IMG/VR virus record: IMGVR_UViG_3300021962_000056
Span: 1 to 64,000 of that record
Direction: 5' to 3' (one strand)
From: a virus
DNA: 64,000 bases
The translations under genes and the position numbers were made by a program. Position 1 is the stretch's first letter. Each line of letters starts with the position of its first letter. The notes beneath the pieces are model-generated. The model worked only from the letters and a program-made list of their open reading frames with translations, made no database searches and was not told the DNA's origin. Shown here in pieces: positions 6,070 to 25,705 of the stretch.

Positions 6070-6073
6070 GGGG

Positions 6074-8943: not shown

Positions 8944-9563
8944 GGTCGTTTTTTCCAGCAGTGAGCCGGTAAGTTTTCGTTCTCTGTAGCGTCCGTGAAG
9001 CGGTGAAGTGTTTCAATGGGAAACCACACCATGCTTCTGATAAAGCAACCACAAAATTCACAGCTCTGAACCTGCTCATCGTATGGCGTACTGCCGTGCT
9101 GCGAGAAGGTTTTTACAGCTTCTTTGAGGACGCGAGCATTGCATCCGGTACATCCAAGTGGCTTGCGATTGAACCGGCAACCTGAGCAGATGTTTGCGCG
9201 GCGGTTGGCTTCTTCTTGGCTGACTTTGCCGCCTCCAACCGTCAGGCCATGAAGCAAACTCATGCTGAACCGGATAACGTCGCCAATCTGGAGCGACTTC
9301 CGGCCTGCTGGTTTTGGAATTTCAACGTCGTCGTAAGCGCAATCGGCACCATTTTTACAGATGTACTCCAGCATCAAGTCGTCCAAATTTGGCGGGACTT
9401 CAATGGCGTTGGCGGCGTAATGCCTCCTGACAAATTCGTGGAGTTGCGGCCATGATCCTGCGAAAACCTCGATTCCGGTTTCTGGAACGCGATAAATCCA
9501 ACCGCCTGGAAGCCCACGATGATCGTTTAACAGCTTGTATCCGGTATTTGATCCGTACGTCAT
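8928..9563 (-). CDS. Fused Cys-rich (zinc-ribbon-like) packaging-region protein
   Basis: 211 aa between terminase and portal. The N-terminal 95 residues include GGWIYRVPETGIEVFAG and resemble the separate 91-aa B protein (GGWQYYQPET). The C-terminal half holds CSGCRFN, GCTGCNARV, CEFCGCF and PAHCW, and resembles the separate 130-aa B protein (CNRC, CEVCGCY, PDNCW). A therefore carries as one gene what B carries as two. The Cys pairs likely bind zinc. The start is fixed by the ATGA overlap with the terminase stop. Function unknown; the position suggests a role in packaging or head completion. Confidence 0.65.
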   Translation of the reverse strand: MTYGSNTGYKLLNDHRGLPGGWIYRVPETGIEVFAGSWPQLHEFVRRHYAANAIEVPPNLDDLMLEYICKNGADCAYDDVEIPKPAGRKSLQIGDVIRFSMSLLHGLTVGGGKVSQEEANRRANICSGCRFNRKPLGCTGCNARVLKEAVKTFSQHGSTPYDEQVQSCEFCGCFIRSMVWFPIETLHRFTDATENENLPAHCWKKRPCTET

Positions 9564-11236
9564 AAATCGTCGTAGTAAATTGAATCGGCGTCTCGAACGA
9601 GCTTTTCCCAGACTTTATCCATCTTGGTTGCTCGCGGTTCAAGAACGGAAGTCTTTCGAACCAAATCAAGAAGGACAACAGCGGCATCGGCCAAGTCTGG
9701 CGATTTTCCGGTTCGTTGTTTCATCACGGTCTTGGATTCGACGGATATCTTCCGCTTTCCGTCATCGAACATGCGCGCGCAAAACTCTTGAAGCGTCTCG
9801 ATATCCATGCCCCCGATGCGCTCTTCGACGACCCACTTTCGCATTGAGAACCAGAGTTCAGTCACCTTGCGGTCGTAAGCCTCATTGCATGGCCGACTAT
9901 CCTCGTCACTGACCGGAATTGTCGATGGAGAGCCGCCGAACTCAACGCGATGAACAACTCCCCATTCGCGAGTCAGAATGTCCGCAAGACCGCCACCCTC
10001 ACCGCTTGAATCAAGGGCGAACTTGTCAGGCGGCACTCCCCGCTTGTTGCACTCTTCCTTGACTCGATTGGCTATCTGGTAGTGAACAGGCTCAGTTAGC
10101 TGTGCATTGGGCGAAATGTGGATGATATCGCCAAAAAGTATGCTAACTTTATCGTTAGCAGTGCCAACCTTGGCAAAGCGAAGGATACACCTGTCACCGC
10201 CGAATCCTGGGTCGAGAGCAGCCACAGTTTCGACGTTTGTACTAAACACCAACTTTTTTGTAGGTGTATGCGTATCAATGAGCGATTCGGACAGCACCGT
10301 CTTGACCATGCCGTCAGGACTCCAGAATCCGCGCGTGTACTTCCAGAAAGTAGGACTCTGCTCGCCCTCATGGCGCATCGCTGACAAGACCTGATCGTGG
10401 GTGATGAGGTATGGGTATTTTGTCCGACCCTCGCTGATGTTCGGACTCTTCATGCCGTCGAACCGTCGGCACATACCGCGTTCCGTCAGCCAATGTTGGT
10501 CTTCAATCGTGACGCTGCGCCATCCTTTGGCAGGAGTGCAGAATCGGCCATGAGGATCGAACTTGGATGCCGGATTGCCGATGACCAGCATCTTAAACTC
10601 GCGGCAACCCTTGCTGAGGTTGGTACATGCCTCGAATGCTGCTTCAGGGGTGTCCGTCGCTTCGTCGATGATGACCATCACCCGCTCGGCGTGAATACCC
10701 TGAATGTTGGCCACAGCCTTCGAAGTGTTGCCCTCGGCGACGGCAATGGCTGAAATCGAATGGCGGTCGTCACCTTTAATAGCCTGCAACGCCATCTTCG
10801 AATCGACCATGTTGCCGGGGAAACCGCGCGATTTCCGAACAAGATCCTGAAGATTAGCCCACATGCGCTTTCGGATCATCTTCGCGGTCGTCGATGTCAG
10901 GACAACCGTTGACTTGGCAGGGTTGGCCAGCCACCAGACTGTCGCGAAAAGCGTTGCGCCAAAGGTCTTTCCGCTCGCGCCGCACCCGGCCCACCCAACG
11001 TAGTCATGCTCGCAGAGGCTTTCGACTTGAGCTTCCAGCCACGGGTTCCAACTGAGCTTTGGCCATAGCATTTTCGTCGCATTCTGAAAATGTTCGAAAG
11101 TGCCTAATCCGCCCTCGTTTGGCTGAAGTCGGTTTCGGAATGCGTAAAGTTCCAGCTCTAGGTCAGGAATCTTGACCGGAGAACGAATTCCATACTTGTG
11201 CTGAATAAGTTGATGCTCAGACGCTTGCTCTGCCAT
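9560..11236 (-). CDS. terL: Terminase large subunit (genome A)
   Basis: 558 aa from ATG at 11236 (MAEQASEHQ; AAGG 7 bases upstream). ATPase motifs: GWAGCGASGKT near residue 88 (Walker A) and VMVIIDEATD near 190 (Walker B). RNase-H-like nuclease motifs: ALDPGFGGDRC near 345, ALDSSGEGGG near 410 and KSPDLADAAVV near 515, giving the acidic metal-binding residues. It cuts and pumps DNA into the prohead through the portal encoded next to it. It is divergent from the tail operon starting at 11291. It is homologous throughout to the B copy but strongly diverged. No small terminase subunit is recognised nearby. Confidence 0.93.
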   Translation of the reverse strand: MAEQASEHQLIQHKYGIRSPVKIPDLELELYAFRNRLQPNEGGLGTFEHFQNATKMLWPKLSWNPWLEAQVESLCEHDYVGWAGCGASGKTFGATLFATVWWLANPAKSTVVLTSTTAKMIRKRMWANLQDLVRKSRGFPGNMVDSKMALQAIKGDDRHSISAIAVAEGNTSKAVANIQGIHAERVMVIIDEATDTPEAAFEACTNLSKGCREFKMLVIGNPASKFDPHGRFCTPAKGWRSVTIEDQHWLTERGMCRRFDGMKSPNISEGRTKYPYLITHDQVLSAMRHEGEQSPTFWKYTRGFWSPDGMVKTVLSESLIDTHTPTKKLVFSTNVETVAALDPGFGGDRCILRFAKVGTANDKVSILFGDIIHISPNAQLTEPVHYQIANRVKEECNKRGVPPDKFALDSSGEGGGLADILTREWGVVHRVEFGGSPSTIPVSDEDSRPCNEAYDRKVTELWFSMRKWVVEERIGGMDIETLQEFCARMFDDGKRKISVESKTVMKQRTGKSPDLADAAVVLLDLVRKTSVLEPRATKMDKVWEKLVRDADSIYYDDL

Positions 11237-11290
11237 AGTTTGGCCTTGCAATAGTTCTCGCTGGACTTGACGTTCTGCGAAAGGAAAATT
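11237..11290. promoter_or_regulatory. Divergent promoter region, terminase/tail operons (A)
   Basis: 54 bases separate the terminase start (minus) from the adhesin start (plus). The plus-strand leader contains TTGCAA and TTGACG, either of which could be a -35-like box, and AAAGGAAAATT just before the ATG at 11291 as ribosome binding site. The same divergent layout occurs in B at 49429-49471. Exact promoter positions cannot be fixed by eye. Confidence 0.4.
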
Positions 11291-12496
11291 ATGCCGTCGC
11301 AACTTGTTTCTTCATCCGGCTGCTGCCAGCCTTGCGACTCCGAGCCGGTAGTCGTGAATATTCCCGGCCCTCAAGGGGCCGCTGGAATCAACGGCACCAA
11401 TGGCACGAACGGAATCGATTCGTTCACCTACACGACAGCCCAGTTTTTTGTTCCCGGCCTTGGCTCAACGGTCGTTGTTCCAGTCGATAATTCCGATTTT
11501 CTTCCCGAATCGGTTGCTGGTCAGTTTTTTGTCTCGATTCAGGGTGTTGGTTACATGCAGGTTCTGGATGTAACTGGGCTTCTTGTAACGCTAAAAAATC
11601 CTGCTACTGGGGTTCTTGGAATTGCCAATGCGGTTCCAGGGACAGCGATTCCGTCCGGTTCGCTCATCACGCTTGCTGGAGCAGTTGGACCTCAGGGTGC
11701 TTCCGGTGCTTCCGGCGGCGCGCCAGTTGGAGCTTCTTACGTTTGCCGCACATCGGACGGAACGCTAACAAACGAAACTGCCCTCGACTCGCTGTCAGCC
11801 GGTTACATGAAGACCGCCGGTTCTGGCGGTGCTGGCGTCGTCTCGACGGTTGCGACGGTTCCTGTGGCCGACATCAGTGGCACGTTGCCGATTGCAAATG
11901 GCGGCACGAATGTCACGACCGTTCCAACCAATGGTCAGCTTCTGATCGGCAATGGAACCGGATACACGGTGGCCAGCTTGACCGCTGGTTCAAACGTCAC
12001 GATTACACCCGGTGTTGGTTCGATTACAATCGCAGCAACGACTGCCACGCCGTTCAACTACGTCACGTTCACTCGAAGGCTGACCGGAAACAATCTGATT
12101 GCTTCTGGAGACACCAAAAATCCGTTTAATTCAACTTCATTTCCATCAGGATCTTGGACAACGCTTGACCCTTCGGCAGGATTTACTGCTGCAACAGGTC
12201 GATTCACAGTTCCGTACACCGGATACTACAAAATTAACGTTCTGCTCAATTTGCTTGGTAGTGCTGGCGTTTCGAGTGTCATCGTTTTTCTTCGTAAGAA
12301 TGGTTCAAACATTTTGCAGAGCTTGGAATTTAACGCCACAAACGCTTCTCCTCAGAGCCTTGTTCCGGTTTCACTTTCGTACATCGACCAAGCTGCCGCC
12401 ACAACCGATTACTACGACATATTGGTTCAGGCTTCCAATTTTGGAGTCAACGTTGCAGCCGGAAGCTCATTCTCTGTTCAACGCATTCAGGCTTAA
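11291..12496 (+). CDS. Tail fibre/adhesin with collagen-like and C1q-like parts
   Basis: 401 aa from ATG at 11291 (strong purine-rich ribosome site). The N-terminus has a Cys-rich patch (SSGCCQPCDS) followed by a collagen-type stretch (IPGPQGAAGINGTNGTNG). The middle has tail-fibre repeats (GTLPIANGGTN, NGTGYTVASL). The last 140 residues look like a C1q/TNF-type beta sandwich (GRFTVPYTGYYKINVLLN, IVFLRKNG). Such proteins trimerise and bind host surfaces. B has no gene here; its large adhesin sits two genes further into the operon. Confidence 0.65.
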   Translation: MPSQLVSSSGCCQPCDSEPVVVNIPGPQGAAGINGTNGTNGIDSFTYTTAQFFVPGLGSTVVVPVDNSDFLPESVAGQFFVSIQGVGYMQVLDVTGLLVTLKNPATGVLGIANAVPGTAIPSGSLITLAGAVGPQGASGASGGAPVGASYVCRTSDGTLTNETALDSLSAGYMKTAGSGGAGVVSTVATVPVADISGTLPIANGGTNVTTVPTNGQLLIGNGTGYTVASLTAGSNVTITPGVGSITIAATTATPFNYVTFTRRLTGNNLIASGDTKNPFNSTSFPSGSWTTLDPSAGFTAATGRFTVPYTGYYKINVLLNLLGSAGVSSVIVFLRKNGSNILQSLEFNATNASPQSLVPVSLSYIDQAAATTDYYDILVQASNFGVNVAAGSSFSVQRIQA

Positions 12497-12499
12497 ACC

Positions 12500-14350
12500 A
12501 TGAGCGAACGCGCACCACGGAGGTACACGGACGGATCTGTCACCTTTGAGGGTGGCATTGACTCCGGCGTTATGCCGTCTGAGGTGGACAAGAATCAGGT
12601 TGCGTTTGCCGTCAACGCCAACTTTCGCGAGGGCTTCATTTCTCCACGCCCCGGTTTCGTTCAGAAAGACTACGACATCTGTGTCACAGTCACTGCTGAC
12701 AATACCGAAATCACGGCTGACCAAACCAACGTAACCGCAGATGGGTGGTCAGAGGAATGCTACGGCCCTCAGGGACTAACCGGCACGTTCCAATGTGCGC
12801 TACCGTACATCTCGGATGATGGACGCACCTTCATCCTGATGCTGATCAGTGGTAAAGTGTGGCTTTACAACTGCGCTGAAAACAATGCCCAGAGCTTGTC
12901 GCTTTCTGCTGATTTGGAAAACCCTTCCAATCTGCTCGATGGTTGGATGGTTCAGGCGGAGAACTTTGTCGTCATTCAGGATGGATTCAGCAAGCCGCTG
13001 ATCTTCAACGGAACAAATCTGCGTCGCGCTGCTGATGACGAAATCAAGTGCGGCAGAGTGATGGCCTATGTCAACGGACGCATTTGGTATGCGCTTCCCG
13101 ATGGGTTTTCGTTCCGCGCCACAGACATTGTTTATGGAGATGGAACGCGAGCCAGTGTTCTCAAAGAAACCGAGAACACCTTCCTCAATGAGGGCGGCGA
13201 CTTTGCGGTTCCGTCGGATTCAGGAGGCATCACGGCAATGGCCGTCCCCGGCAATCCAGATACGTCGCTTGGCCAAGGACCGCTTCTCGTCTTCACCCCT
13301 CGCTACGTTTTCAGCGTTCAAGCTCCTGTAGACCGCGATGTCTGGAAGAACCTGAACTATCCGATTCAAGCCATCAGCCTGCTAACCAGTGGCGCACTTG
13401 GCGCACGGTCGGCTATTACCGTCAATGGCGACGTCTTCTACCGAGCTATCGACGGAATTCGCTCATTCATCATCGCTCGTCGCTCATTCAACGATTGGGG
13501 AAATACGCCTATCAGCGGTGAAATGACGCCGATTGTTGAGAATGATCAGTCGAATCTTTTGTGGGCCAGTTCTGCGGTTGTCTTCGATAATCGAGTGCTG
13601 ATGACGTCTCAGCCTCGCTTCAATTCCGAAGGTGTGATTCACAAGGCCATATCTGTCTTAGATATGGAGCTTGTCACATCGATGCGGAAGAAGGCTCCTC
13701 CAGCATGGTCTGGAATCTGGACTGGGTTGAATGTGTTACAGCTCGTCAAGACCGAGAACGCTTACGGGGACGCTTGCTTCGCCATTGCTCGCGGATCGGA
13801 CGGAACAATTCAAATTTGGGAAATCACCAAGTCAGACAAGTTCGACTCGAACGTTTCCGATCCTAAGAAAGAAATCGAGTGGCTGGTTCAAACTCGCGCT
13901 TACAATTTCGAACTTCCGTTCGGACTGAAGAAGCTCGATTCGGGCGACATCTTCATCGATTCCTTAAGCGGTTCGGCGGCGTTCAATGTTCAGTATCGCC
14001 CTGACCAATACCCCGGCTGGCTTGAGTGGACCGATTGGACTGAGTGCGCGATTGTCGATCAGTGTCTGACAGGGTTGTGTCCGATAACCAATTTTCAGCC
14101 TCAATACAGGCCGAAGATGCGGCTTCCGACTCCAAGCGATATCCCGTGCAATGAGTCGACCAGCACTCCGACTCGGAATTTGTACGAGGTTCAACTCAAC
14201 ATTGCGGTGTCTGGATATTGCCGCATCAAGAGTGTTCGAGTTCACGCTTACGACGTTCAAGAATCTCCTGTCGGTGAGTGCCGAACATACCAAGGATGCA
14301 AGGTCATTGATGCCTGCGACGTAAATCCGTTTACCTACACATCGGAATAG
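12500..14350 (+). CDS. Putative tail nozzle / tubular protein B-like (A)
   Basis: 616 aa, homologous to the 679-aa B protein at 47389-49428: shared starts (FEGGIDSGVMPSEVDKNQ versus AEGGVDSGFSPSLIQPNQ), AENFVVIQD, ENTFLNEGG, VDRDVWKNLNYPIQ and NTPISGEM blocks. Length and position (first large tail gene after the divergent terminase) fit the gp12/nozzle protein of T7-like tails, but no motif proves it. Many beta-rich segments and Cys residues occur near the C-terminus (CIVD-type clusters around residue 520-540). B carries an extra inserted module that A lacks. Confidence 0.6.
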   Translation: MSERAPRRYTDGSVTFEGGIDSGVMPSEVDKNQVAFAVNANFREGFISPRPGFVQKDYDICVTVTADNTEITADQTNVTADGWSEECYGPQGLTGTFQCALPYISDDGRTFILMLISGKVWLYNCAENNAQSLSLSADLENPSNLLDGWMVQAENFVVIQDGFSKPLIFNGTNLRRAADDEIKCGRVMAYVNGRIWYALPDGFSFRATDIVYGDGTRASVLKETENTFLNEGGDFAVPSDSGGITAMAVPGNPDTSLGQGPLLVFTPRYVFSVQAPVDRDVWKNLNYPIQAISLLTSGALGARSAITVNGDVFYRAIDGIRSFIIARRSFNDWGNTPISGEMTPIVENDQSNLLWASSAVVFDNRVLMTSQPRFNSEGVIHKAISVLDMELVTSMRKKAPPAWSGIWTGLNVLQLVKTENAYGDACFAIARGSDGTIQIWEITKSDKFDSNVSDPKKEIEWLVQTRAYNFELPFGLKKLDSGDIFIDSLSGSAAFNVQYRPDQYPGWLEWTDWTECAIVDQCLTGLCPITNFQPQYRPKMRLPTPSDIPCNESTSTPTRNLYEVQLNIAVSGYCRIKSVRVHAYDVQESPVGECRTYQGCKVIDACDVNPFTYTSE

Positions 14351-14351
14351 T

Positions 14352-15155
14352 ATGCCAAACCTAACGCTCATCACGCTTACCGCGCCAAATCTGCCGCTGA
14401 CTTACTGCCCGTCCAACTACCAGCAGTTGGCCAACGACATCATCAACGGCACTCAGGCAAATTTTAACAGCTCGATTGGGAATTCGTTCTTCAACTACGG
14501 ACCGACAACCCCTTCGCTGAACAATCAGATTTACCCGTGGCTGGACGAGAACGGTGAATGGTGGGTTCGCGTCAATGGATACTGGGCTAGGAAAAACCCT
14601 GTTGCTGCCAACGGCTCCGAGCGTCGCATTTTTGTTGGCACCGCTGCTGATGTTCTCAGCTACGATGGTGGTGACGGCACGGCGACTTCAACAAATGTGA
14701 CTTCTGGTCCGATGTGGGTTGTTGATACCGCGTTTGAGGCGCGGTTCCCGGTTGGAGTCGGAGCCTTTGCGGCAAGCGGAACAGTGAATGTCACCGGCAC
14801 CTCGACGAACACATCTGTTGCCGGTGAGGACAAGCACACGCTGATAGTCGCTGAAACCCCGTTCAACGAACACACGCACGGTGTGGCTCAGTTGGCGATT
14901 CCGAATAACGACGATTACTACCTTGTTGGAAAATCTTGGACCGGACTTGGATCGTATCCGACCAAGATCATTCAGGGTGCTGCTGGAACTGGTGGTGGCG
15001 GCGCAGGTCCAAGCATCACGACCGGCGAAGTTGGAACGACCAACGCCGACAAGACTGGAAACGACAGCCAGAACGCCATTGGCCATAACAACCTGCCGCC
15101 GTTCTACGGTGTTTACTTCATCAAGCGCAGCAGCCGAGTCTACTACACCAAATGA
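14352..15155 (+). CDS. Short tail fibre / tail tip protein
   Basis: 267 aa, starting one base after the previous stop. The Asn/Thr/Gly-rich beta sequence includes GEWWVRVNGYWARKN and a C-terminal ETPFNEHTHGVAQ; HxH motifs of this kind bind metal in trimeric phage fibre tips. The final part (GHNNLPPFYGVYFIKR) is typical of tail-collar-type proteins. Its position matches the 330-aa B gene at 43258-44250. Confidence 0.6.
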   Translation: MPNLTLITLTAPNLPLTYCPSNYQQLANDIINGTQANFNSSIGNSFFNYGPTTPSLNNQIYPWLDENGEWWVRVNGYWARKNPVAANGSERRIFVGTAADVLSYDGGDGTATSTNVTSGPMWVVDTAFEARFPVGVGAFAASGTVNVTGTSTNTSVAGEDKHTLIVAETPFNEHTHGVAQLAIPNNDDYYLVGKSWTGLGSYPTKIIQGAAGTGGGGAGPSITTGEVGTTNADKTGNDSQNAIGHNNLPPFYGVYFIKRSSRVYYTK

Positions 15156-16123
15156 AGCTAATCGTTCAGGACATTCGCTCCACAATCGCTCGGGTCATCG
15201 GTGTATGTGTCGATGATGCGCGCGTTTATGATTACATCAATCAGGCGTGTCGAAGGCTTCTGCACAAGGGGTTGTGGGCTGGCGCGTACGGACGCTTCAC
15301 GATTCATACCGTCGGCGGCTGCATCACTTGGCCGCGTCAAATCGAAACCATCGAAGCTGTAGCCGATTGCTGCGGAGTCGGGACGGTTCGCAACCAATGG
15401 TTCGAATTTCAGGAGACTGGCTATGGACTGCTCAACGGGAATCAGGTGTGCATCGGCAAGCAGCTTATTGACCGTGGCACTGTGGTTTCTTACCGCGACA
15501 TGTCTGGCGGTCTTAACAGCTATCTTCGAGTCTACCCTGGTGACGCTTCGGACGTTGGCAAAACCATCACGTTGCAGGGCGTCGATCAGAACGGTCAGTG
15601 GATTCGAACGCAGTCGGGTTTAACATGGATTGACGGAGAAAAGCTGACGCTCGCTTTGCCGTACGTTCAATCGACCAAGAAGTTCACCGAACTGACCGGC
15701 GTCATCCGCGAGGCAACGAACACGGTTAGCCGATTGTACGAGTACAATGCGACGACCGCGCTGGAATCGGATCTGGCAGTTTACGACCCTGATGAAACTT
15801 TGCCGCAGTATCGTCGTAGCTACCTTGCTGACCGATGTAGCGACGAGGCTGACAAGCCGGTGACGGTCATGGCCAAGATGCGCCACATCAACGCTACGAG
15901 CGTCAACGACTACCTCATTCCTCCGTGTCCTGACGCCATCAAGCTGATGGTCATGGCGATTCGCAAAGAAGAGAACGATTTGATTCAGGAAGCAGTGGCC
16001 TACGAAGCCAAAGCGGTTCAAGCTGTGCAGGAGCAGACGATGCAGTACCTAGGCGATGCGGTTGCTACCATTCGCATGGTGGGCGTCGGATTGAACGGCG
16101 GAGGATTCTCCCAATGGTTTTGA
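15152..16123 (+). CDS. Putative head-tail connector / tubular protein A-like (A)
   Basis: 323 aa, ATGA overlap with the previous gene. It is homologous to the 361-aa B gene at 42176-43261: GGCITWPRQIETIEA versus AGCITWPREVKTIEA, NQWFEFQ versus NQWYEFQ, and a shared C-terminal helical region (VMAIRKEENDLIQEA versus MKAIQKEDRNQYTEA). The N-terminal helices and beta middle would fit a podovirus adaptor (gp11-like), but the assignment rests on order and size. Confidence 0.6.
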   Translation: MKLIVQDIRSTIARVIGVCVDDARVYDYINQACRRLLHKGLWAGAYGRFTIHTVGGCITWPRQIETIEAVADCCGVGTVRNQWFEFQETGYGLLNGNQVCIGKQLIDRGTVVSYRDMSGGLNSYLRVYPGDASDVGKTITLQGVDQNGQWIRTQSGLTWIDGEKLTLALPYVQSTKKFTELTGVIREATNTVSRLYEYNATTALESDLAVYDPDETLPQYRRSYLADRCSDEADKPVTVMAKMRHINATSVNDYLIPPCPDAIKLMVMAIRKEENDLIQEAVAYEAKAVQAVQEQTMQYLGDAVATIRMVGVGLNGGGFSQWF

Positions 16124-16680
16124 ACCTGAACATTGATTTTGCGCTGGAAGAAGCGACGCCGGAGAAACTTCGGCTGCTTCAGGCTGTCTTGGACGCGCAT
16201 GACATGGCGGCGCGGAACAATCAGAATGCGAGTTCTGGTGCTGCGGTAAACGCTTTCTTTGGAAGCGCGCAGCTTACCAATGGAATCGCTTCAGCCATCC
16301 TGACGCTTGGCGATGCTCACGGTCCGATTGGTCCTGCTCGATTCGTTTACGAGCGATTCAACGAGATGGCGTTGAAGTCGGCCATTGAGTCCGGCATGAA
16401 GATTCCCGGCTTCGGCAATTCGTTCTTCAAGGATCGAATCGATCCGGCGTGGAGTCACGTTCGCGAGGTTATTGAGGCTGACTTTCCGAATGCGAATGCC
16501 CGTATCAATCAGCTTCATGGGTGGATGAAGGAGGCTGGAAAAGATGTTTATCCGAATGCGGCTCTTTACACCGCAGTAATTTGCAGCGAACTAGGAATGA
16601 TTCCCGGTTCTGAAGCGGCCATCTTCATCTTGGCGAGGACCGCTGCGTGGACATCGATGTGCGTAAAAAATGAAAGGTAA
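16114..16680 (+). CDS. Truncated citrate-synthase-like protein, probably non-catalytic
   Basis: 188 aa, about half the length of citrate synthases and citryl-CoA lyases. IPGFGNSFFKDRIDPAW matches the family block IPG(Y/F)GH..-DPR, and YPNAALYTAVICSELGM plus IFILARTAAW match the C-terminal PNVD...GV...ARTxG region. The first catalytic His may survive in GDAHGP, but the second is Asn (GFGN) and the catalytic Asp of PNVD is Ala (PNAA). The N-terminal part of the large domain is missing. It overlaps both neighbours by about 10 bases inside the virion operon. Likely a fold reused for binding or structure. Confidence 0.65.
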   Translation: MVLNLNIDFALEEATPEKLRLLQAVLDAHDMAARNNQNASSGAAVNAFFGSAQLTNGIASAILTLGDAHGPIGPARFVYERFNEMALKSAIESGMKIPGFGNSFFKDRIDPAWSHVREVIEADFPNANARINQLHGWMKEAGKDVYPNAALYTAVICSELGMIPGSEAAIFILARTAAWTSMCVKNER

Positions 16681-17215
16681 GCTCTTTCAAATCTGCGGAC
16701 TGCCCCGATTCGGATCGGCATTCATGTCGGTCCTTTTCTCGTTGGAGGCAGACTGCATTGGCTTACATGAGCAGGGTGCGACTGACCCGAACTGGAAACA
16801 GTCCATCGAGGAGTATCGGACGCGGTACAAGTACGTCGCCGATTGCTCTACTTACGGTTACCTTCCCAAAGCTGTCGTCAGCGACTCGGTGAAGGTGTAC
16901 GTCAAGAAGGATGCGGAAGCGTCGGCCAAGGAATGCACCGAGCGATTCGGATACGAGGTTCACTTGCCTTCGGTTCAGGCGTTGCGCGAATACGCTGATT
17001 CGTGGGCATCGCTTCATGGCGTGATGATCGTGGAGGAGAACGAGCTTTTTAAGTTGGATACTTTGCGTCGTGTGTGGGTTCATTGCTTCCAGAACGAGCG
17101 AGCATTCCCAGAGGAGAAGGCTGCGCGTCTGGTTACCATGAATATCCAACGTCACGAACCTGAGAAGGTGTTCTCGATTGAGAACGGCAATCGTCTTGTG
17201 AAGGAGGTTTTTTGA
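16670..17215 (+). CDS. Sulfotransferase-like protein
   Basis: 181 aa. The N-terminus QICGLPRFGSAFMSVLF resembles the phosphosulfate-binding loop of sulfotransferases (GxPRSGTT/S) in its PR-G-S pattern. Later, VADCSTYGYLP and SVKVYVKKDAEASAKEC fit the VxRDPxxxxxS strand-helix of the family. The classical C-terminal GxxGxWK motif is not seen. The start overlaps the citrate-synthase-like gene by 11 bases. If active it would transfer sulfate from PAPS to a surface or virion substrate. B has a cupin gene in this slot instead. Confidence 0.5.
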   Translation: MKGKLFQICGLPRFGSAFMSVLFSLEADCIGLHEQGATDPNWKQSIEEYRTRYKYVADCSTYGYLPKAVVSDSVKVYVKKDAEASAKECTERFGYEVHLPSVQALREYADSWASLHGVMIVEENELFKLDTLRRVWVHCFQNERAFPEEKAARLVTMNIQRHEPEKVFSIENGNRLVKEVF

Positions 17216-17218
17216 TTT

Positions 17219-18031
17219 ATGGGAGCTATTCTAGGTGGTGCAGCAATCATCGGCGGAACGAGCTTGCTTGGTGGCTTACTGGGCAAGGGCAGCAAGCCGA
17301 AGATTCCAGAGCTTAAGCCAATCGATTTCGCGGCAGAGCAGCGACAAGCGATTCAGCAGAACATCGCATCGCTCGAACCTGCCACCGAATTGGCGCAGAA
17401 GACGACCGCCGCTGAACAGTCTCAGCTTGAGGCGCAGCTTCGCCGCGCGATTCCCGGTTATGACCAGCTCGTTCAGCAAGCCAGCAAAAACATTGGTGCT
17501 TCGCTAAGGGGCGAGCTTCCTGCGGATGTGCAGCAGCAGATTCAGCGTTCGACCGCTGGACGCGCGCTTGCTGGTGGATTTGGCGGCGGAACTGGATTTG
17601 GCCGTGCGCTGACCGCTCGCGACTTGGGTCTGACGAGTTTGCAGCTTCAGAATCAAGGTCTTGCTCAAGCTCAGAACTTCATCCAACAGCAGCGCGCATT
17701 CGGCATGACTCAACCGTTCTCGGTGAGCAGTATGTTTATTACACCGGCACAACGTGTCGGCGTGATGCAACAGCAGCAGCAGGCGCAGTACAATCGCAAC
17801 CTGCAAGCCGCCCAGGTGGCCGCAATGCCCGATCCTACGATGGCTGCAATCGGAAGCGCGATTTCTCAGGCCGGTGGATTCGCTGGCGGCGCGTACACGC
17901 AGCGCGGGTTGATGCAGCAGATGCCGGGAGGATATTCTTCCGGTTCGTACAATCCGCAGAACGACCCTGAGATTTACTCTTTCCCGAGAACAAACATCGG
18001 CGGACCAGCCGATTCCGCTAACTGGGGTTAA
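17219..18031 (+). CDS. Internal virion/ejection protein, gp14-position (A)
   Basis: 270 aa with a strong ribosome site (GGAGG upstream). The N-terminus is a hydrophobic Gly/Ala segment (GGAAIIGGTSLLGGLLG), followed by Gln-rich helices. The conserved block LRGELPADVQQQIQRSTAGRAL, GFGRALTARDLGLTSLQ is shared with the 246-aa B protein at 40984-41724. A short membrane-active protein ahead of two larger helical proteins matches the order of T7 gp14-gp15-gp16, which leave the head first and build the ejection channel. Function by analogy. Confidence 0.6.
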   Translation: MGAILGGAAIIGGTSLLGGLLGKGSKPKIPELKPIDFAAEQRQAIQQNIASLEPATELAQKTTAAEQSQLEAQLRRAIPGYDQLVQQASKNIGASLRGELPADVQQQIQRSTAGRALAGGFGGGTGFGRALTARDLGLTSLQLQNQGLAQAQNFIQQQRAFGMTQPFSVSSMFITPAQRVGVMQQQQQAQYNRNLQAAQVAAMPDPTMAAIGSAISQAGGFAGGAYTQRGLMQQMPGGYSSGSYNPQNDPEIYSFPRTNIGGPADSANWG

Positions 18032-18036
18032 AATTT

Positions 18037-19410
18037 ATGGCTGACGAAACTCTTCAAGCATTTCAGCTCGGTGCTTCGCTGTTCGACCGCGCGCAGACGC
18101 AGAAGCGGATGATGGAGCAGATGCAGATGCAGACTGCCGATCAGTTGATGCGTCAGCGTCAGTACGATCTTCAGAACAAGATCCAGTCGAATGCTTACGC
18201 TCAGGCGTTGGAGGAGCAGGCGAATCAGGCTGCTGAGTATGATACTTTTCAGACGTTCAATCAGCAAGTGGCCGATTTCTTGAACAACTCAACTGAAGGT
18301 GGAGCAATGCCAGCTCTTCCTCGGTTCAAATCAAAGCAGTTCAATCAGCAAGCAACTCAGATCATCAATGGATTGGAGCCGTATTCTGCCCGTGCAAAAC
18401 TCATCAAAGAGCAGGCAAAGCTAGCATCGTTCACTGATCAGCTTGAAGCAGCAAGAATAGCTGAGGCTAGAAAGTACAATGCCCTGACGCGCACTTCTGA
18501 CGGGAAATATGTCATTGATGACGGTCTGATTGCACAGAAGAAATCTGAAGAAGAACAGCTTGGCAGGGCATCAAAACTTGGAAGCATTGGAAAACTTGGA
18601 ACATCAACCGTACAGAGAATGATTGATGTTGGCCAAATTCCTCAAGAAATAGCACCGCAAGCTCTTCTTGCCGCTGAAAGTTTTGAAAAGTCAAAACAAG
18701 GTGCTGTTGCTAAAAATACCGACTTGTTCATTGAAGCTGCAAAAGCAAAGGCAAAAGCATCAGGACAAGAGCTTTCTCCAGCTAAAGAAGCTGAGTTGAG
18801 ACAGACATTTATCGGCGGCGGCGGACGGCTTAAACCGCTTGAAGCCAAGACAGCGACAAAGCTGGAGGATGAATTTGCTGTCATGGAGACGATTGATTCT
18901 CTTCAAGATGGAATCGCAGAATTTGAGTCTCGTTATCCCGGCAAGAAGTTCACCGACTTTCTTGGCGCGATACCCACAACTGAAATCAAGATTCGCTCTC
19001 TTGTTCAGACCGAGAAAGATCCAATGAAACAAGACGCTCTGGAGTTGTTGGCCGATTTCATGGGCGTTGTAAATCGCACCGCAAGAACTACGTCTGGGCT
19101 GAATGTTACTGAAAGCGAAGGTAAACGAATTGCTCAGGAAATCGGTGGATCGTTCGACAAGAATTCCCTCATCAAACTCGATCAGTTTAGAAAGCGGATT
19201 GAGCGGAGTGCGCGCGGGACGATTGGTCGAAACATCGACAAATCTCTTCCGTCGTTCTACGAACGCTGGTCTACGACACCATTTGGAACTAGAACCACCG
19301 CTGCATATTCCGTTCCTGCGGTTCCGTTTCAGTCAAATGCTCAGTCCACAGAGTCGATGAGTCTTCAGGATATGCAGCGGTTAATCCAAGAGCTGGAAGC
19401 GAAGCAATAA
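18037..19410 (+). CDS. Internal virion/ejection protein, gp15-position (A)
   Basis: 457 aa, almost entirely helical and charged (Ala, Gln, Lys, Glu). The N-terminus (QKRMMEQMQMQTADQLMRQR) is a Gln/Met-rich coiled coil. The middle contains YEPFS-type helical pairs without recognisable catalytic motifs. It corresponds by order to the 475-aa B protein at 39552-40979, whose N-terminal Gln/Arg-rich coil is similar in style. Probably a structural component released into the cell on infection. Confidence 0.5.
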   Translation: MADETLQAFQLGASLFDRAQTQKRMMEQMQMQTADQLMRQRQYDLQNKIQSNAYAQALEEQANQAAEYDTFQTFNQQVADFLNNSTEGGAMPALPRFKSKQFNQQATQIINGLEPYSARAKLIKEQAKLASFTDQLEAARIAEARKYNALTRTSDGKYVIDDGLIAQKKSEEEQLGRASKLGSIGKLGTSTVQRMIDVGQIPQEIAPQALLAAESFEKSKQGAVAKNTDLFIEAAKAKAKASGQELSPAKEAELRQTFIGGGGRLKPLEAKTATKLEDEFAVMETIDSLQDGIAEFESRYPGKKFTDFLGAIPTTEIKIRSLVQTEKDPMKQDALELLADFMGVVNRTARTTSGLNVTESEGKRIAQEIGGSFDKNSLIKLDQFRKRIERSARGTIGRNIDKSLPSFYERWSTTPFGTRTTAAYSVPAVPFQSNAQSTESMSLQDMQRLIQELEAKQ

Positions 19411-19413
19411 TTT

Positions 19414-21849
19414 ATGCCACTTTCACAACAAGAATCTGAGCTTCTTCAGAGCCTTAAAGCCGAAGTCGCTCGGAGAATGGCGTCAAGCAATGCCACTCCT
19501 GCTCAGCCTTCTATCCCTCAATTCGAAACCGCTGCCGCTGTCGGATCGACCGCTCAGTTGAATCGGGCTGTACAACAGTCGGCCACTGTTGGCGAGATGC
19601 GTCGTCGCGAGGAGCAGGGCCTTGTTTCCGCGCTTAATCCAGAGCAGATCAGGCAAGCGACGATGAGTGACGCTGCTCGGATGGGCGAGGCAATGCAGCA
19701 AGAGGAGGCTCGTCTTGCTGCTGCTGGCGCACCGTCAATGTTTGATGAAACTGCACCTACCAAGGAAGAAGTTTCTCAAGGTGTAAGATATGGTGCAGGC
19801 CCATTGCTTCAGACAATGGGTGTTCCGTTTCCCGTTGGCCAAGCCATCGGTGAAACAGGTTATCAGTTGATGTCTGGAGAAACTAGCCCTCGAAAGATTG
19901 CGGCAGCAGCGGCAAAAGAAGCTGTCACATCTTTAGGTGGTGGGGCTGCAAAAATTTTGCCAGGGCCAATTAGAAGGAATCTTTTTGAAACTGGACAAAC
20001 ACTTCTCAGTGCTGCCGCAAAAGTTCCAATTCAAGGAGCGATGCGAGGTTTGGCCGGTGAGGCTACAAGAGCTTCAGTTGCTGGAGAAGAATGGAAGTTT
20101 GATAACTTTCTTGATGCAGCAAGAGATTACGCCGTTGGAGAAACTGCGGGAAGTCTTGCTGGTAACTTGATCGGTGCTGGATATCGCAAGTACAAAGGAG
20201 GCGGAGATTTTCTCGGTGAGTTGAGTCGTCCGTTTTACGATCAGTTTCAGAGGAACATTGCTGATAAGGAAGGGGAGCTTGCTGGTAAGCTGGCTAGGGC
20301 ATATCGAGCAGATCCAGATCAAGTGAAAAACGTTCTTGCTCAGTCTTTCAAGCAGAACTCAACCAAGTCTGGACAAGAGTTTGCCGATGCGGCTGTTGCT
20401 GATGTCGAAAAAGTATTCGGAAAACTCGACGAAGAGACGACAAACGCTTTCAGCAAGTTGGCCAACGATTACGACAAGATGGAGTCGTTGACGCTTGGTG
20501 AAGCTGTTGGAGTTGTTAAAAACACTGCACAGAGTGTTTACGACAGGAAGAATGAGGCTTTTGGAAAAGAGTTTGACACTTTTCGGGCAGACCCTCGCGT
20601 TCAATCAAAAGATTACGACAAGTCGGTTGCCAGAGGCGGTGAACTTTACGGTCCAGTTAGCGGAAAAAGTCTGAACGACCTTTGGAAAGAACAGCAGGAT
20701 GCCGCAAAAGCAATCAAGTGGGGCGAACCTGTCAAAGCTGGCACTGGCGATCAATGGGCCGCTTACAACCAAGCGAAGGCAAAGTTTGAAGATGCTCTTG
20801 GTCAGTTTGAAAAAAGGTTTCCCAAAGATCCTCTCATCCAAAATTTCAGAGACTTGAAGGATCGGTACTCTGGATTCATGGAGGACTACAATACCACTTT
20901 TTCAAAAGGAATTCTTAAGGACATCGGAGAGCAAGGTGGATCTTGGTCTTCGATCATCAAAACTCTTGGAGGTTCTGACGGCCCTGCAAAACTTCAGCAG
21001 TTGAAGAAAATTCTAGCTGAAGACTATGACGGAATTAAATCAAAGATTGGAAACACGATCTACAACGATCTAAACAAAGGAGGTCAGATCAAGTTTCTGG
21101 ATAATCTTGAAAACGCGCTTTCAAAAGGATGGAACGGACTTCAAAAAGAAGTTCTTGATGAGTTCTTTCCAAACGTAACTAGAGATGGAATCAAGCAAGC
21201 GAGAGCAGCTTTTGAAGTGTCGTCGAAAAGTTTTGCTGAAGATTTCAGGAAGGCTTCACTAGGAAAAGGTGAAGGTGTAATTGCATCTCCAGATGTTGTT
21301 CTTGAGTTCCTGAATAACTCAAAAGAGAACGTGACGAAGGTTAAAAACGCACTGAGTGCAGAGACTTTGGCTGACACTCAGAATGCGTTGCTATCTCAGA
21401 TTGTCAGCGAAGCAAGTAAGAAAGGTCCTATCACAGCTAGGTCGTTCACTCAGTCGGCGGAGTCATGGCAGAACGCTTTAGATGGAGTTTTTGGTCCTTC
21501 TGGAAAAACCAAAATCGATGAAATAGCGAAGGCACTTGAAATAGGCGAAAAGAACAAGACGTCGCTTATTTCAAAGTTACTTCCTGGGGTTGCAGGTGCA
21601 ACTGCATTTGCAAAAGGAACGACGGCTGCTGGGCCGTTTTTTGGAATTGCTGGAAGCGAAAGAGCCTATCGCTGGACTGAAAAACTTCAGTCGAAGATTG
21701 TCGGTTATCTCTTGGACAATCCGAACTATCGCGCTGCTGTCATCAAGCCATTTGACCAGCTAACGAACGCCGAGACTCGCATGCTCGACAACGACATCCC
21801 GATGATCATCCGAAATCTGACCGTCAAAACCGTCATGTCTGGCGAATGA
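19414..21849 (+). CDS. Large internal virion/ejection protein, gp16-position (A)
   Basis: 811 aa. The first 130 residues are helical and Ala/Gln-rich. Gly/Ala-rich hydrophobic stretches follow around 140-270 (AKEAVTSLGGGAAKIL, GETAGSLAGNLIGAG), then long amphipathic helices to about 720 and a second hydrophobic segment (SKLLPGVAGATAFAKG). No lysozyme or transglycosylase signature is seen. By position it pairs with the 2456-aa B protein at 32175-39545, so this slot differs threefold in length between A and B. Base use is noticeably richer in A/T than the terminase block. Confidence 0.5.
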   Translation: MPLSQQESELLQSLKAEVARRMASSNATPAQPSIPQFETAAAVGSTAQLNRAVQQSATVGEMRRREEQGLVSALNPEQIRQATMSDAARMGEAMQQEEARLAAAGAPSMFDETAPTKEEVSQGVRYGAGPLLQTMGVPFPVGQAIGETGYQLMSGETSPRKIAAAAAKEAVTSLGGGAAKILPGPIRRNLFETGQTLLSAAAKVPIQGAMRGLAGEATRASVAGEEWKFDNFLDAARDYAVGETAGSLAGNLIGAGYRKYKGGGDFLGELSRPFYDQFQRNIADKEGELAGKLARAYRADPDQVKNVLAQSFKQNSTKSGQEFADAAVADVEKVFGKLDEETTNAFSKLANDYDKMESLTLGEAVGVVKNTAQSVYDRKNEAFGKEFDTFRADPRVQSKDYDKSVARGGELYGPVSGKSLNDLWKEQQDAAKAIKWGEPVKAGTGDQWAAYNQAKAKFEDALGQFEKRFPKDPLIQNFRDLKDRYSGFMEDYNTTFSKGILKDIGEQGGSWSSIIKTLGGSDGPAKLQQLKKILAEDYDGIKSKIGNTIYNDLNKGGQIKFLDNLENALSKGWNGLQKEVLDEFFPNVTRDGIKQARAAFEVSSKSFAEDFRKASLGKGEGVIASPDVVLEFLNNSKENVTKVKNALSAETLADTQNALLSQIVSEASKKGPITARSFTQSAESWQNALDGVFGPSGKTKIDEIAKALEIGEKNKTSLISKLLPGVAGATAFAKGTTAAGPFFGIAGSERAYRWTEKLQSKIVGYLLDNPNYRAAVIKPFDQLTNAETRMLDNDIPMIIRNLTVKTVMSGE

Positions 21850-22133
21850 AAACCTCCCTCTCCAAGAAAGGTAATACTTGGCGTGGCCGAAATGTAACGC
21901 TCGACTCTCCTCGGAAGATCGAAGGCGTGACGCCGTATCCGAAAAAGAAGTCTGTCTTCGTGAAGAACGACAACGGCAGGGTAATTGTCCTTCATTTTGG
22001 TGACGTTCGATATTCCGATTTCACCAAGCACAAGAACCCGAAGCGTCGGGCCAATTTTCGCTCCCGTCACAACTGCGCGGAAGCGAAGGACAAAACAACG
22101 CCCAAATATTGGGCATGCAAAAACCTCTGGTAA
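21846..22133 (+). CDS. DUF5754-like small basic protein (A)
   Basis: 95 aa, ATGA overlap with the previous gene. Conserved pattern: KKSVFVKNDNGRVIVLHFGD, then KHKNPKRRANFRSRHNC and TPKYWACKNLW. This is the viral family I know as DUF5754. The B copy at 56235-56480 has VRLVRFGD, RKSFRARHGC and AKYWSCRAW. Role unknown; the Arg/Lys content suggests nucleic-acid contact. In B it follows the lipoprotein; in A it ends the tail operon. Confidence 0.75.
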   Translation: MKTSLSKKGNTWRGRNVTLDSPRKIEGVTPYPKKKSVFVKNDNGRVIVLHFGDVRYSDFTKHKNPKRRANFRSRHNCAEAKDKTTPKYWACKNLW

Positions 22134-22138
22134 CTATT

Positions 22139-22339
22139 ATGGACAAGATGCGACTTGGTGGTGGCGGACGTTTCGAGAAGCTGGTTGGCCAGCTTGAGAA
22201 GAAGGGCGTGAAAGATCCTGCGGCTTTGGCAAGCGCAATTGGACGCAAGCAGCTCGGCAAGGCGAAGTTCCAATCGCTTGCTGCGAAAGGTCGTCGCCGC
22301 GCGATGCGGGAGAAGGAGTCTAGCTCCTCTTACGCTTAA
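22139..22339 (+). CDS. Small basic phage protein (AxxIGRKxxG type, A)
   Basis: 66 aa from ATG at 22139. It carries KLVGQLEKKGVKDP, AALASAIGRKQLGKAKFQ and a basic AAKGRRRAM segment, a short motif found widely in aquatic phage proteins. The B homologue (56078-56230) has ALAAFIGRKKLGAEEFQ. It follows the DUF5754-like gene in both genomes. Its 3' end overlaps the convergent primase-helicase gene by 20 bases, and I see no terminator hairpin there. Confidence 0.7.
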   Translation: MDKMRLGGGGRFEKLVGQLEKKGVKDPAALASAIGRKQLGKAKFQSLAAKGRRRAMREKESSSSYA

Positions 22340-24128
22340 AGCCGTTCGACGGTTTCTTATCAACGACGAACTTCTCTGGCTCCGCATGAGTCCATGAGAT
22401 GGTTCCAACGCCGCGCTGGATGATGATCGAGCCGACCTTCTTGTCCTCCTTGTCTCTCAATCCAGCGCGGTCTGCCCTCTTGGCCATGCCGAGCATGAAG
22501 CGGCGAGGATGATTGAATCCAAGCTCTTTCATCACAATCACCTCTCTCGCCCAGTTGGTCAGGTCTGAGCTTCCGAATCCTGAGTAGGCCAAATCTGCCA
22601 CGCTCTCAGGTTTGTCGTCCTTTCCCTTCGGCTTCGGGAAGTGATGTACCAGCACCAGGACAACTCCCGTCTCCATCATAATCGGCTGGAGCAGATGTCG
22701 CGTGAAGTTGGCGCAGACCTCGATGTCCGCAGGATTGCCGCCCATGTAGGAGAGCAGCGGATCGATGTAGACGATATCCGCCTTCGTCTTCCGAACCAGC
22801 CTACGCAGCATCGTGGCGAAATCCGCACCCGTCCGCACCGTCTCGCGGAAGAATAGCATGCCAGCTTGGCGAAGACCTTCCTGCCATCCATGTTGGCCAA
22901 AGACCGACATTGCTGCGCCTTTGAGACTGTCGTGTTGATCGGCGATGTCGTTCTCAGCTTGGATGTACGCTATCTTGAGCGGTCGTACCGGCTGCACTCC
23001 GAACCAAGCCGCCCCTCTGGCCCAGCACAGACCCTGATAGAAAGCCATCGAGCTTTTGCCGCATCCGCTCTGCCCAACGAATAGAAGCGACGATCCGCGA
23101 CGTAGCCACCTGTCTCCGATCAGATTGTCAGGATCATTCTCAGGGTCGTAGTCGATGATGCTCTGGAGCGTGAACTCCTGAGGCATGTCCTGAGACTCCA
23201 GATAGTCCGTGAACGCTTCCCAATTCACCGACCCGACATTGATGGCCAACAGCTTCTGCTCCTTGCCATCGCGCATCACACCGGCCAAGCGGCTGAACCT
23301 GCTTGCGTTCTTGTTCTTCGGATCGATGCCGAGAGCCTCTAGCTGGCGATAGACGACATCTCTCCGCTCGCCCCACTCCTCCTTGTTCGCCGCATCGACT
23401 CGCACCCATCCATGCAGACTCTTGCCGCCGGAATCGATGACGACGGAAAGCGGCAGCTTTGACTCCTTGAGAATCGTCCACTGCTCGTCCTTCGTCTTCT
23501 CATCCATCTCGACAAGGACATGTCGGAATGATGCTACGCCGGAATCTGATCCGCTTTCATCGAGACATGGATTGACTCTGACATACGCGCCACGGCTATC
23601 AGGACTGTTCCACATGGAACTAATCGGCGGCGTGAAATGATGCTTTATCCAATCATCGCGCTTGAGGAATGTACCCTTGGAAGCTGGCCTACATCTGCCA
23701 TCCTCGTCGCTTACGATATCATTGCAGATACAGACAACCTCGTCCGGTTCGAAGCATGCCTTGAGAAAATCGATGGTTGAAAATCTGAATTCCGGTTGCG
23801 GAATTGCTTGAATCTTTTGCACGACGAACTTGCCGGTAGTCGAGACTGGCGTTCCACTCTGCGCCGACAGAAGCCAGCCCTTCGGCTTGTCGTGCGCCAC
23901 GTTCATCGCCTGATTCACCTTGTGGGCCAGTTCATTGGCATTCCACGGTGGAACGCATTTCTCGTTGTACTCGGCGAGCAGTGCTTCAGCCGATCCTCGC
24001 GACAGCTCAAAGCCATGCACCAGAGCGGTGGCTACTGCGAAGGTTGCGTTATGACCGCCCTGTCCGCTGATGGCACCGGGGGTGTTACGAAGCCATGCTC
24101 GCGCACGGTCGATATTTGAATTGCTCAT
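22320..24128 (-). CDS. Primase-polymerase/RepA-like helicase fusion
   Basis: 602 aa. Residues 1-75 form a small helical domain seen in phage replicases (SGQGGHNATFAVATAL). About 95-290 looks like an archaeo-eukaryotic primase: RHVLVEMDEK near 206 and SGGKSLHGWVRVD near 235. From 330 a RecA/RepA-type ATPase follows: LLFVGQSGCGKSS near 355 (Walker A), ADIVYIDPLLSYMGG near 455 (Walker B), VLVLVHHFPKPKG near 495. It should both prime and unwind at the A replication fork. The start overlaps the previous gene by ATGA. Confidence 0.8.
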   Translation of the reverse strand: MSNSNIDRARAWLRNTPGAISGQGGHNATFAVATALVHGFELSRGSAEALLAEYNEKCVPPWNANELAHKVNQAMNVAHDKPKGWLLSAQSGTPVSTTGKFVVQKIQAIPQPEFRFSTIDFLKACFEPDEVVCICNDIVSDEDGRCRPASKGTFLKRDDWIKHHFTPPISSMWNSPDSRGAYVRVNPCLDESGSDSGVASFRHVLVEMDEKTKDEQWTILKESKLPLSVVIDSGGKSLHGWVRVDAANKEEWGERRDVVYRQLEALGIDPKNKNASRFSRLAGVMRDGKEQKLLAINVGSVNWEAFTDYLESQDMPQEFTLQSIIDYDPENDPDNLIGDRWLRRGSSLLFVGQSGCGKSSMAFYQGLCWARGAAWFGVQPVRPLKIAYIQAENDIADQHDSLKGAAMSVFGQHGWQEGLRQAGMLFFRETVRTGADFATMLRRLVRKTKADIVYIDPLLSYMGGNPADIEVCANFTRHLLQPIMMETGVVLVLVHHFPKPKGKDDKPESVADLAYSGFGSSDLTNWAREVIVMKELGFNHPRRFMLGMAKRADRAGLRDKEDKKVGSIIIQRGVGTISWTHAEPEKFVVDKKPSNGFKRKRS

Positions 24129-24349
24129 TGGATTCCAAGTTGTTTACGCGCTAGTTCTCCAGACTTGCCAAGATCGGTCTTGGCGATTTCCTGAAGAACA
24201 GAATTTGATTTCTCTAACTTTCTGAAAAGGAGAGCCAGCTCTTTGGGCGTCATCAGGTACTTGCTCCAATGCTGGATGGCTATGGAGCGAGACTGGAACT
24301 TCGCAAAGAGCTGCTCTTGTGCGGCGATGTAATGATCAGGGCTTCGCAT
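24125..24349 (-). CDS. Small helical protein, unknown
   Basis: 74 aa, predicted all-helical and charged (QSRSIAIQHWSKYL, KELALLFRKLEKSN, LARKQLGIQ). It overlaps the previous gene by 14 bases and the primase-helicase by ATGA, so it is translated with the replication genes. No family is recognised; a replication accessory is possible by location only. Confidence 0.55.
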   Translation of the reverse strand: MRSPDHYIAAQEQLFAKFQSRSIAIQHWSKYLMTPKELALLFRKLEKSNSVLQEIAKTDLGKSGELARKQLGIQ

Positions 24350-24521
24350 CTATCAGCACGAACTTGGCCTTGAATTCGGCTTTGGTTCGAACGTAGAGCT
24401 TTCGCTTACCTTCCCGCATGTAAACCACGCCGGACCATTTAGTTTCTCCGATCCGTATTTCTACGTCGTCGGAGAGGAGTTCAACCTCCACCGAGCTGTT
24501 TCCTGAGTTCTTGTATTTCAT
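24336..24521 (-). CDS. Small beta-rich protein, unknown
   Basis: 61 aa from ATG at 24521 (MKYKNSGN); starts at 24533 and 24578 are also in frame but lie deeper in the preceding gene. The sequence alternates polar and hydrophobic residues (VEVELLSDDVEIRIGE, GVVYMREGKRKLYVRTK), suggesting a compact beta fold. No family recognised. It is coupled to both neighbours by overlaps. Confidence 0.5.
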   Translation of the reverse strand: MKYKNSGNSSVEVELLSDDVEIRIGETKWSGVVYMREGKRKLYVRTKAEFKAKFVLIDAKP

Positions 24522-24687
24522 CTTCGGAAGCATCGTCGAGATGGCCCACCCCAGCCGACTGCCATCCGCTGTCCGCATTGCGTTTTGGCTTTGCCGGTCT
24601 GGTCATCCACCCGCGAAGAATCGCATAGTCGATGAGGCGCGGAGCTTCCTTCAAGAGTTGTTCTCTGGAGATTTCAGATGCTTTCAT
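24481..24687 (-). CDS. Small charged protein, unknown
   Basis: 68 aa from ATG at 24687 (MKASEISREQLLK). It has an N-terminal helix, DYAILRGWMTRP, then an acidic end (DDASEDEIQELRK) finishing in QLGGG. The frame stays open upstream to 24849 and an ATGA start at 24843 would give 120 aa, but codons there (AGA, AGG, TTA, ACA) are unlike the neighbours while the other frame looks coding, so the short form is preferred. Confidence 0.5.
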   Translation of the reverse strand: MKASEISREQLLKEAPRLIDYAILRGWMTRPAKPKRNADSGWQSAGVGHLDDASEDEIQELRKQLGGG

Positions 24688-25632: not shown

Positions 25633-25705
25633 GTTTGTAGACTGATAGATTTCTTCGACACTCATCTTGCAAAGCGTGAATGCTCGTTTTCTTGGGTAGT
25701 AGATG

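Follow-up and report, generated by a model that had tools for sequence, protein, structure and literature searches.

A half-length homologue of citrate synthase and citryl-CoA lyase, paired with a sulfotransferase-like gene in an optional slot of a phage late operon

The window, that is, the whole stretch of viral DNA analysed here, comprises bases 1-64000 of the 92,531-base record G000. It contains an ORF of 188 codons with an ATG at 16114 and a stop codon ending at 16680, the start of which overlaps the last codons of the upstream gene. The genes at this locus are as follows:

15152..16123 (+), conserved late gene at the left edge of the slot, with 384 relatives in viral contigs, labelled 'tail connector' in the first-pass annotation
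16114..16680 (+), half-citrate-synthase protein, 188 aa, recognized by PF00285, a fold match and constant length
16670..17215 (+), putative sulfotransferase-like partner, 181 aa, sharing its first 11 bases with the end of the half-citrate-synthase gene
17219..18031 (+), conserved gene at the right edge of the slot, adjoining the upstream gene in empty-slot loci

PF00285 (Citrate_synt) was the sole Pfam family found by hmmscan at E<=10 for the 188-aa ORF (37.4 bits, E 2.1e-9; curated cut-off 27 bits), with protein positions 16-184 aligned to positions 164-345 of the 357-position profile. The cut-off was also passed by the family members L317, L299, L247 and L385, whereas L396 remained below it (19 bits). 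In the phmmer search of the PDB, the best match was the citrate synthase 2p2w (E 1.9e-8), followed by Thermus citrate synthase and Hydrogenobacter citryl-CoA lyase. Moreover, a profile of 30 phage members matched 45 PDB sequences at E<=0.01 (best 1.1e-14), and every one of them was named citrate synthase, (2-)methylcitrate synthase or citryl-CoA lyase. Based on the Pfam, phmmer and family profile matches, the resemblance to citrate synthase is one of homology. Judged from its sequence and its structural model, the ORF product is homologous to the C-terminal half of citrate synthase/citryl-CoA lyase; the N-terminal part of the enzyme, before profile position 164, is absent.

An AlphaFold2 run with only 14 close relatives gave a pLDDT of 53, and that model was discarded. 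The model used was built on a 30-sequence alignment covering six clusters and two remote members (pLDDT 89.3, pTM 0.87). The top solved match in Foldseek was the citryl-CoA lyase 6hxp (E 3e-7, TM 0.79 by query); 157 chains were found at E<=0.001, and the best 50 of these were all citrate synthases, methylcitrate synthases, a citryl-CoA lyase or ATP-citrate lyase. VIA-align placed 185 residues of the model on 6hxp at 2.5 A (Z 18.6) and gave a Z of 17.3 for 2p2w. Identity was 12-25% in the fold-based alignments with solved cellular enzymes. The encoded fold is thus predicted to be a minimal citryl-CoA-lyase/citrate-synthase fold, consisting of the mobile 'small' domain and the flanking large-domain helices. 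The first-pass annotation had recognized a half-length, citrate-synthase-like protein from its motifs; with the profile, family and fold scores above, this likeness extends beyond chance motif matches, and the half length corresponds to the C-terminal half of the profile.

According to PMC8455617, His274, His320 and Asp375 are active-site residues of pig citrate synthase, and Arg46, Arg164 and Lys366 contact acetyl-CoA; the small domain comprises residues 275-385 according to PMC4524684. The corresponding motifs in the phage protein are as follows:

16318..16326 (+), H69-G-P, retaining the His274 position, opposite the catalytic His of 2p2w, 6s6f and 6hxp in the alignments and found in 83 of 83 sequences
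16405..16419 (+), P98-G-F-G-N102, by alignment the loop of His320 in citrate synthase, with Asn here in 81 of 83
16540..16563 (+), K143-D-V-Y-P-N-A-A150, by alignment the motif ending in the catalytic Asp375 of citrate synthase, with Ala here in 82 of 83

Specifically, the His of GDAH69GP aligns to pig His274 and is kept, the last residue of IPGFGN102 aligns to His320 and is Asn, and the last residue of YPNAA150 aligns to Asp375 and is Ala, so that the phage PNAA equals the PNAD of 6s6f. Additionally, DPA112 aligns to the Arg of the DPR motif (pig Arg329), which is lost, and AR175T aligns to the Arg of the AR/SR motif (pig Arg401), which is kept. The loss of two of three catalytic residues, read from the motifs in the first-pass annotation, was therefore recovered by alignment.

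Collapsing 335 ORF records, with only rows spanning at least about 140 profile positions kept, gave 83 unique family sequences. H69, K143 and N148 were present in all 83, R175 in 82 with one gap, and A112 in 79. The counts for N102 (81, with Ser in L385 and Gly in L396, the two remote members) and A150 (82) are biased, because Asn102 was contained in several search patterns and PNAA in others, so the invariance at both positions is partly built in. The lone Asp bearer was L287/L354 (contig IMGVR_UViG_3300037488_001799), which has PNAD instead of PNAA and belongs to the main cluster; its Asp could reflect a back mutation or a sequencing error, or else indicate that the position tolerates Asp.

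Considering the loss of the Asp base, the second His and the oxaloacetate Arg together with the retention of the first His, the PGFG loop, Lys143, Asn148 and Arg175, the residues speak against citrate formation or cleavage, and their pattern would fit a ligand-binding or altered role. The idea of a CoA/carboxylate binder in the first-pass annotation is weakened on its carboxylate side, with the His320, Arg329 and Asp375 positions lost and the Arg401 position kept. CoA binding by the 188-aa protein is not assured either, since the equivalents of Arg46 and Arg164 precede the part present here.

Among known enzymes, the citryl-CoA lyases (Hydrogenobacter thermophilus 6hxp, the ATP-citrate lyase module and NF004869) are similar in offering the closest fold, a short form and the first catalytic His. 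The first-ranked NCBIfam subfamily was indeed citryl-CoA lyase NF004869 (PRK06224 group), but with 33.1 bits against a curated cut-off of 212; moreover, the phage protein has 188 aa compared with 256 residues in the 6hxp structure, shows 20% identity to it, and has the catalytic Asp and second His replaced. With citrate synthase and 2-methylcitrate synthase (PF00285; 2p2w, 6s6f), it shares the C-terminal-half homology, the Lys and Asn that precede the catalytic Asp, and the residue equivalent to Arg401, whereas the N-terminal part and the equivalents of His320, Arg329 and Asp375 are missing.

The protein might still be an active enzyme with altered chemistry, a Claisen-type or retro-Claisen lyase acting on an unspecified acyl-CoA, with His69 and other residues replacing the Asp base. 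Such a lyase would account for the conservation of His69, Lys143, Asn148 and Arg175, for citryl-CoA lyases being the nearest fold and NCBIfam subfamily, and for the strong purifying selection and the remote homologues among nucleotide-metabolism genes described below. It is harder to reconcile with Ala in place of Asp in 82 of 83 sequences, with a second His replaced by Asn, Ser or Gly, and with the PDB titles of the ATP-citrate lyase D1026A entries, which name forms holding substrates or products; D1026 is presumably the equivalent Asp and the D1026A mutant presumably inactive. We consider altered chemistry doubtful, though worth keeping in view.

The late-operon family fell into six clusters at 80% identity, with 73, 2, 1, 2, 1 and 1 unique sequences; members of the other five clusters were 38-54% identical to the window protein and had the same key residues. 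The start and length were identical in 79 of the 80 relatives kept, the other contig beginning inside the gene. Median pairwise dN/dS (Nei-Gojobori, up to 2000 pairs drawn per gene and used if dS was 0.05-1.5) was 0.08 for the half-citrate-synthase gene (88 distinct gap-free sequences), compared with 0.057 for the gene before it (77 sequences) and 0.10 for the 181-aa partner (87 sequences). The value of 0.08 indicates purifying selection rather than decay and, together with the constant start and length, a functional protein. It also disfavours the view that the gene is a functionless, decaying remnant of a captured host gene, for which the half length and the lost catalytic residues could be cited; equal length in 79 of 80 relatives and the same key residues in six clusters point the same way, and a remnant is hardly credible.

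As judged from sequence searches, the family is common in uncultured viral contigs and strongly conserved. No close relative of either the half-citrate-synthase gene or the upstream gene was found in genome contigs with a pattern method that finds close relatives, and the plasmid collection yielded one weak match (E 9e-4). Among 50,697 GenBank phage records, there was no relative at E<=1 except the citrate synthase and 2-methylcitrate synthase genes of four 'Acinetobacter phage MD-2021a' records (E 0.3-0.4), which are apparently bacterial enzymes. The upstream gene had no relative in GenBank phages at E<=1e-3, and L385 and L396 had none at E<=0.1. In addition, the 188-aa model had no match in the viral fold library at E<=0.001, and a PHROGs scan of 30 members gave no convincing family, the stray matches, in one member each, being to an unnamed family (E 0.0059) and a 'cytolethal distending toxin B subunit' family (E 0.0099).

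The 181-aa gene is a near-constant neighbour that was absent from the first-pass annotation. Over all 421 loci, it came next in 339 of the 343 gene-bearing loci (redundant) with room for it, defined as at least 150 bases, and 7 more ended too soon; the four exceptions are two remote contigs (L385 and L396), each counted twice. The 11-base overlap recurred in 326 of 336 loci (redundant) in which both genes matched the window proteins. The partner followed the half-citrate-synthase gene in all six late-operon clusters and in 92 of 92 distinct upstream-plus-downstream sequences bearing that gene, and by reading of the ORFs it was kept in L324, although the upstream gene differs there. The pairing is not universal, since the partner stands alone in 7 of 80 loci and the remote homologues lack a detectable sulfotransferase homologue.

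The window partner itself (16670-17215) had no Pfam, PHROGs or NCBIfam match. It is 41% identical to L317:3879-4424, and this homologue passed PF13469 (Sulfotransfer_3) with 28.1 bits against a cut-off of 27 (E 3e-6); the partner in L299 matched Sulfotransfer_4 below the cut-off (E 0.003). A profile of the partner family matched tyrosylprotein sulfotransferase only over the 5' loop (E 0.045). Like sulfotransferases (PF13469; tyrosylprotein sulfotransferase), the partner has a GxPRxGT-type 5' loop; unlike them, it has only about 180 aa, and PF13469 was matched at E<=1 by 4 of 7 members, the window member not among them. We regard the 181-aa gene as sulfotransferase-like, with a putative activity.

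The two remote members were found with a pattern that did not require N102, and none of their kind was found beyond the L385 and L396 contigs. L385 matched PF00285 with an E of 3.2e-9 and L396 with 7.8e-4, below the cut-off. According to Pfam, a phage-type RNA polymerase lies near the half-citrate-synthase gene in both contigs, with ThyX near the homologue in L385, and dUTPase and ribonucleotide reductase near that in L396. No sulfotransferase homologue was found in the two records, which have 19,081 and 62,311 bases and are possibly incomplete. The half-citrate-synthase gene is accordingly a phage accessory gene in two settings, and the sulfotransferase pairing is confined to the late-operon setting. 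A small neighbour gene without a Pfam match is common to both contigs (L385:6631-7008 and L396:13328-13819, both on the minus strand; 38% identity, E 4e-26 in one comparison).

A survey of viral contigs queried with the upstream gene alone matched 389 stretches and gave 384 relatives. In the best 80 of these, 94-100% identical, the half-citrate-synthase gene was present in 35 (in 34 with the next gene seen, and in one with the contig ending first), and 34 were empty, having neither this gene nor the 181-aa gene but retaining the downstream conserved gene. The 181-aa gene stood alone in 7, and 4 contigs ended too soon to tell. The half-citrate-synthase gene was thus missing from 41 of 76 tellable loci, about half of these closely related operons. 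In empty slots, the gap between the upstream and downstream genes was 29-101 bases (30 loci measured). A set of 122 distinct upstream-plus-downstream sequences, enriched for filled slots, contained 92 with both genes, 25 empty, 5 partner-only and none with the half-citrate-synthase gene alone. A tree was built from 110 distinct upstream genes (again enriched for filled slots), of which 84 came from filled, 21 from empty and 5 from partner-only loci. Parsimony required 16 presence/absence changes on it, whereas 500 shuffles averaged 23.6 changes and never gave fewer than 17; filled and empty states are interleaved and only somewhat clustered.

The main idea of the first-pass annotation had been a structural or ejected virion protein derived from a metabolic fold, as the position between conserved same-strand genes and the start codon overlapping the upstream gene might suggest. 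A component this dispensable is unlikely to be structural. The absence from 41 of 76 loci and the remote homologues among nucleotide-metabolism genes, in an RNA polymerase/ThyX/RNR region, leave the virion reading unsupported, and the sulfotransferase-like nature of the partner also argues against it; we judge it very improbable. The supposition of a fixed place in the virion operon was rejected on the 34 empty and 7 partner-only loci among the 80.

The optional presence in phage genomes would also suit an inactive decoy or modulator. Such a protein would bind host citrate synthase or citryl-CoA lyase and alter its assembly or activity during infection, and a fold as in the host enzyme with a changed active site would suit it. 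However, the identity to solved cellular enzymes aligned by fold is only 12-25%, the N-terminal part is missing, and the near-constant sulfotransferase-like neighbour is left unexplained; a decoy seems unlikely to us.

The record contains a second, distantly related structural module, with the terminase 29%, the portal 25%, a hub-like protein 41% and the upstream gene 32% identical between the two. In this second module, the same slot is occupied by a different gene of 154 aa at 41712-42176 (-). It matches two PHROGs families, one named 'short tail fiber protein' (6.8e-27) and the other 'tail fiber adhesin' (1e-20), so this position may accept insertions in general. The module boundary in the window lies between 1-28427 and 28428-64000, and GC rises from mostly 0.49-0.54 before 28 kb to mostly 0.54-0.59 beyond it. 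A separate contig of 34,202 bases ends at window position 28427; its initial 5.5 kb are 99.98% identical to the far end of G000, and stretches of the contig are 99.97-100% identical to window 8438-28427 and 99.8% identical to window 1-6225. Through the match to window 8438-28427, the half-citrate-synthase region is independently supported. G000 is probably either an assembly artefact that joins two phages or a genome of composite origin. Elsewhere in the window, 57474-58114 shows 84% DNA identity to a stretch of the other phage's contig (L418 = G006 4705-5340), a possible recombination or misassembly point, and 32175-39545 (-), in the second module, is a single ORF of 2456 aa in which only DUF7178 (E 2.4e-8) passed the cut-off.

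Among the module genes scanned, terminase was the sole clear PHROGs match (phrog_2, 1.8e-23). The upstream gene had no convincing Pfam or PHROGs match, and its label as a tail connector was not confirmed. The same applies to the genes at 17219-18031, 18037-19410 and 19414-21849, taken for ejection proteins in the first-pass annotation, for which no convincing Pfam match was found; the first two of these had no convincing PHROGs match. A further group of genes lies on the opposite strand:

2899-6691 (-), likely glycan-modifying gene run, with a glycoside phosphorylase family 130 gene, two glycosyltransferase-25-like genes (one just under the cut-off) and two methyltransferase-like genes (one under the cut-off)

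The glycosyltransferase-25-, methyltransferase- and glycoside-phosphorylase-like genes of this phage make modification of a surface or glycan a plausible setting. Of the filled records, 6 of 7 had a glycosyltransferase-25 homologue, as did 5 of 7 with an empty slot and 2 of 2 with the partner only. That these genes track the cassette was therefore rejected, and their occurrence in all three kinds of record provides no specific link to it.

We read the two genes as a mobile, optional cassette in which a small citryl-CoA-lyase fold without Claisen chemistry binds CoA or 3'-phosphoadenosine in partnership with a sulfotransferase-like enzyme, and we give this reading as a whole a probability of roughly 0.4. 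It builds on what the data support directly, namely, the homology and predicted fold, the replaced Asp, second His and one oxaloacetate Arg, the purifying selection, the optionality and the near-constant pairing; from these we infer the ligand and the partnership. The cassette would occupy the late-operon insertion slot in uncultured phages that together form a large, probably podovirus-like group. The 188-aa protein would no longer make or split citrate, and its retained pocket (first His, PGFG loop, Lys143, Asn148 and Arg175) may bind a CoA-type ligand or another 3'-phosphoadenosine nucleotide. It might then act as a substrate-handling or regulatory partner of the product of the overlapping sulfotransferase-like gene, and their joint chemistry, for example, late-infection modification of a surface or glycan, could help on some hosts and be dispensable on others.

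The sulfotransferase-like type of the partner suggests PAPS chemistry. CoA and PAPS have 3'-phosphoadenosine in common, and it is on this basis that a nucleotide-handling role is proposed. In a more specific version, which we consider improbable as it stands, the citrate-synthase small domain would bind 3'-phosphoadenosine and feed, sense or relieve product inhibition of a miniature sulfotransferase in phage-driven sulfation.

The fold and the superfamily of the half-citrate-synthase protein are already known. Among the titles and abstract openings listed for phage citrate synthase, auxiliary metabolic genes, sulfotransferases and pseudoenzymes, no description of the protein was found. In Lake Baikal viromes, PMC8066274 reports a viral gltA, carried by an abundant scaffold, among the auxiliary metabolic genes. 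That gene resembles the present one in being a citrate synthase annotation on a viral scaffold; unlike the phage family described here, it was assigned there to a Pelagibacter phage HTVC008M virotype. In PMC11256456, citrate synthase is a host typing gene.

The half-citrate-synthase genes represent a strongly selected phage family in which a fold of central metabolism has its hallmark residues consistently replaced. A gene labelled 'viral gltA' can thus encode a protein that is probably unable to make citrate, and this bears on claims that viruses reprogram the Krebs cycle. The two-gene system is small enough for direct testing, and, if the sulfation reading is true, a metabolic fold would have been recruited as a nucleotide-handling subunit for phage-driven sulfation.
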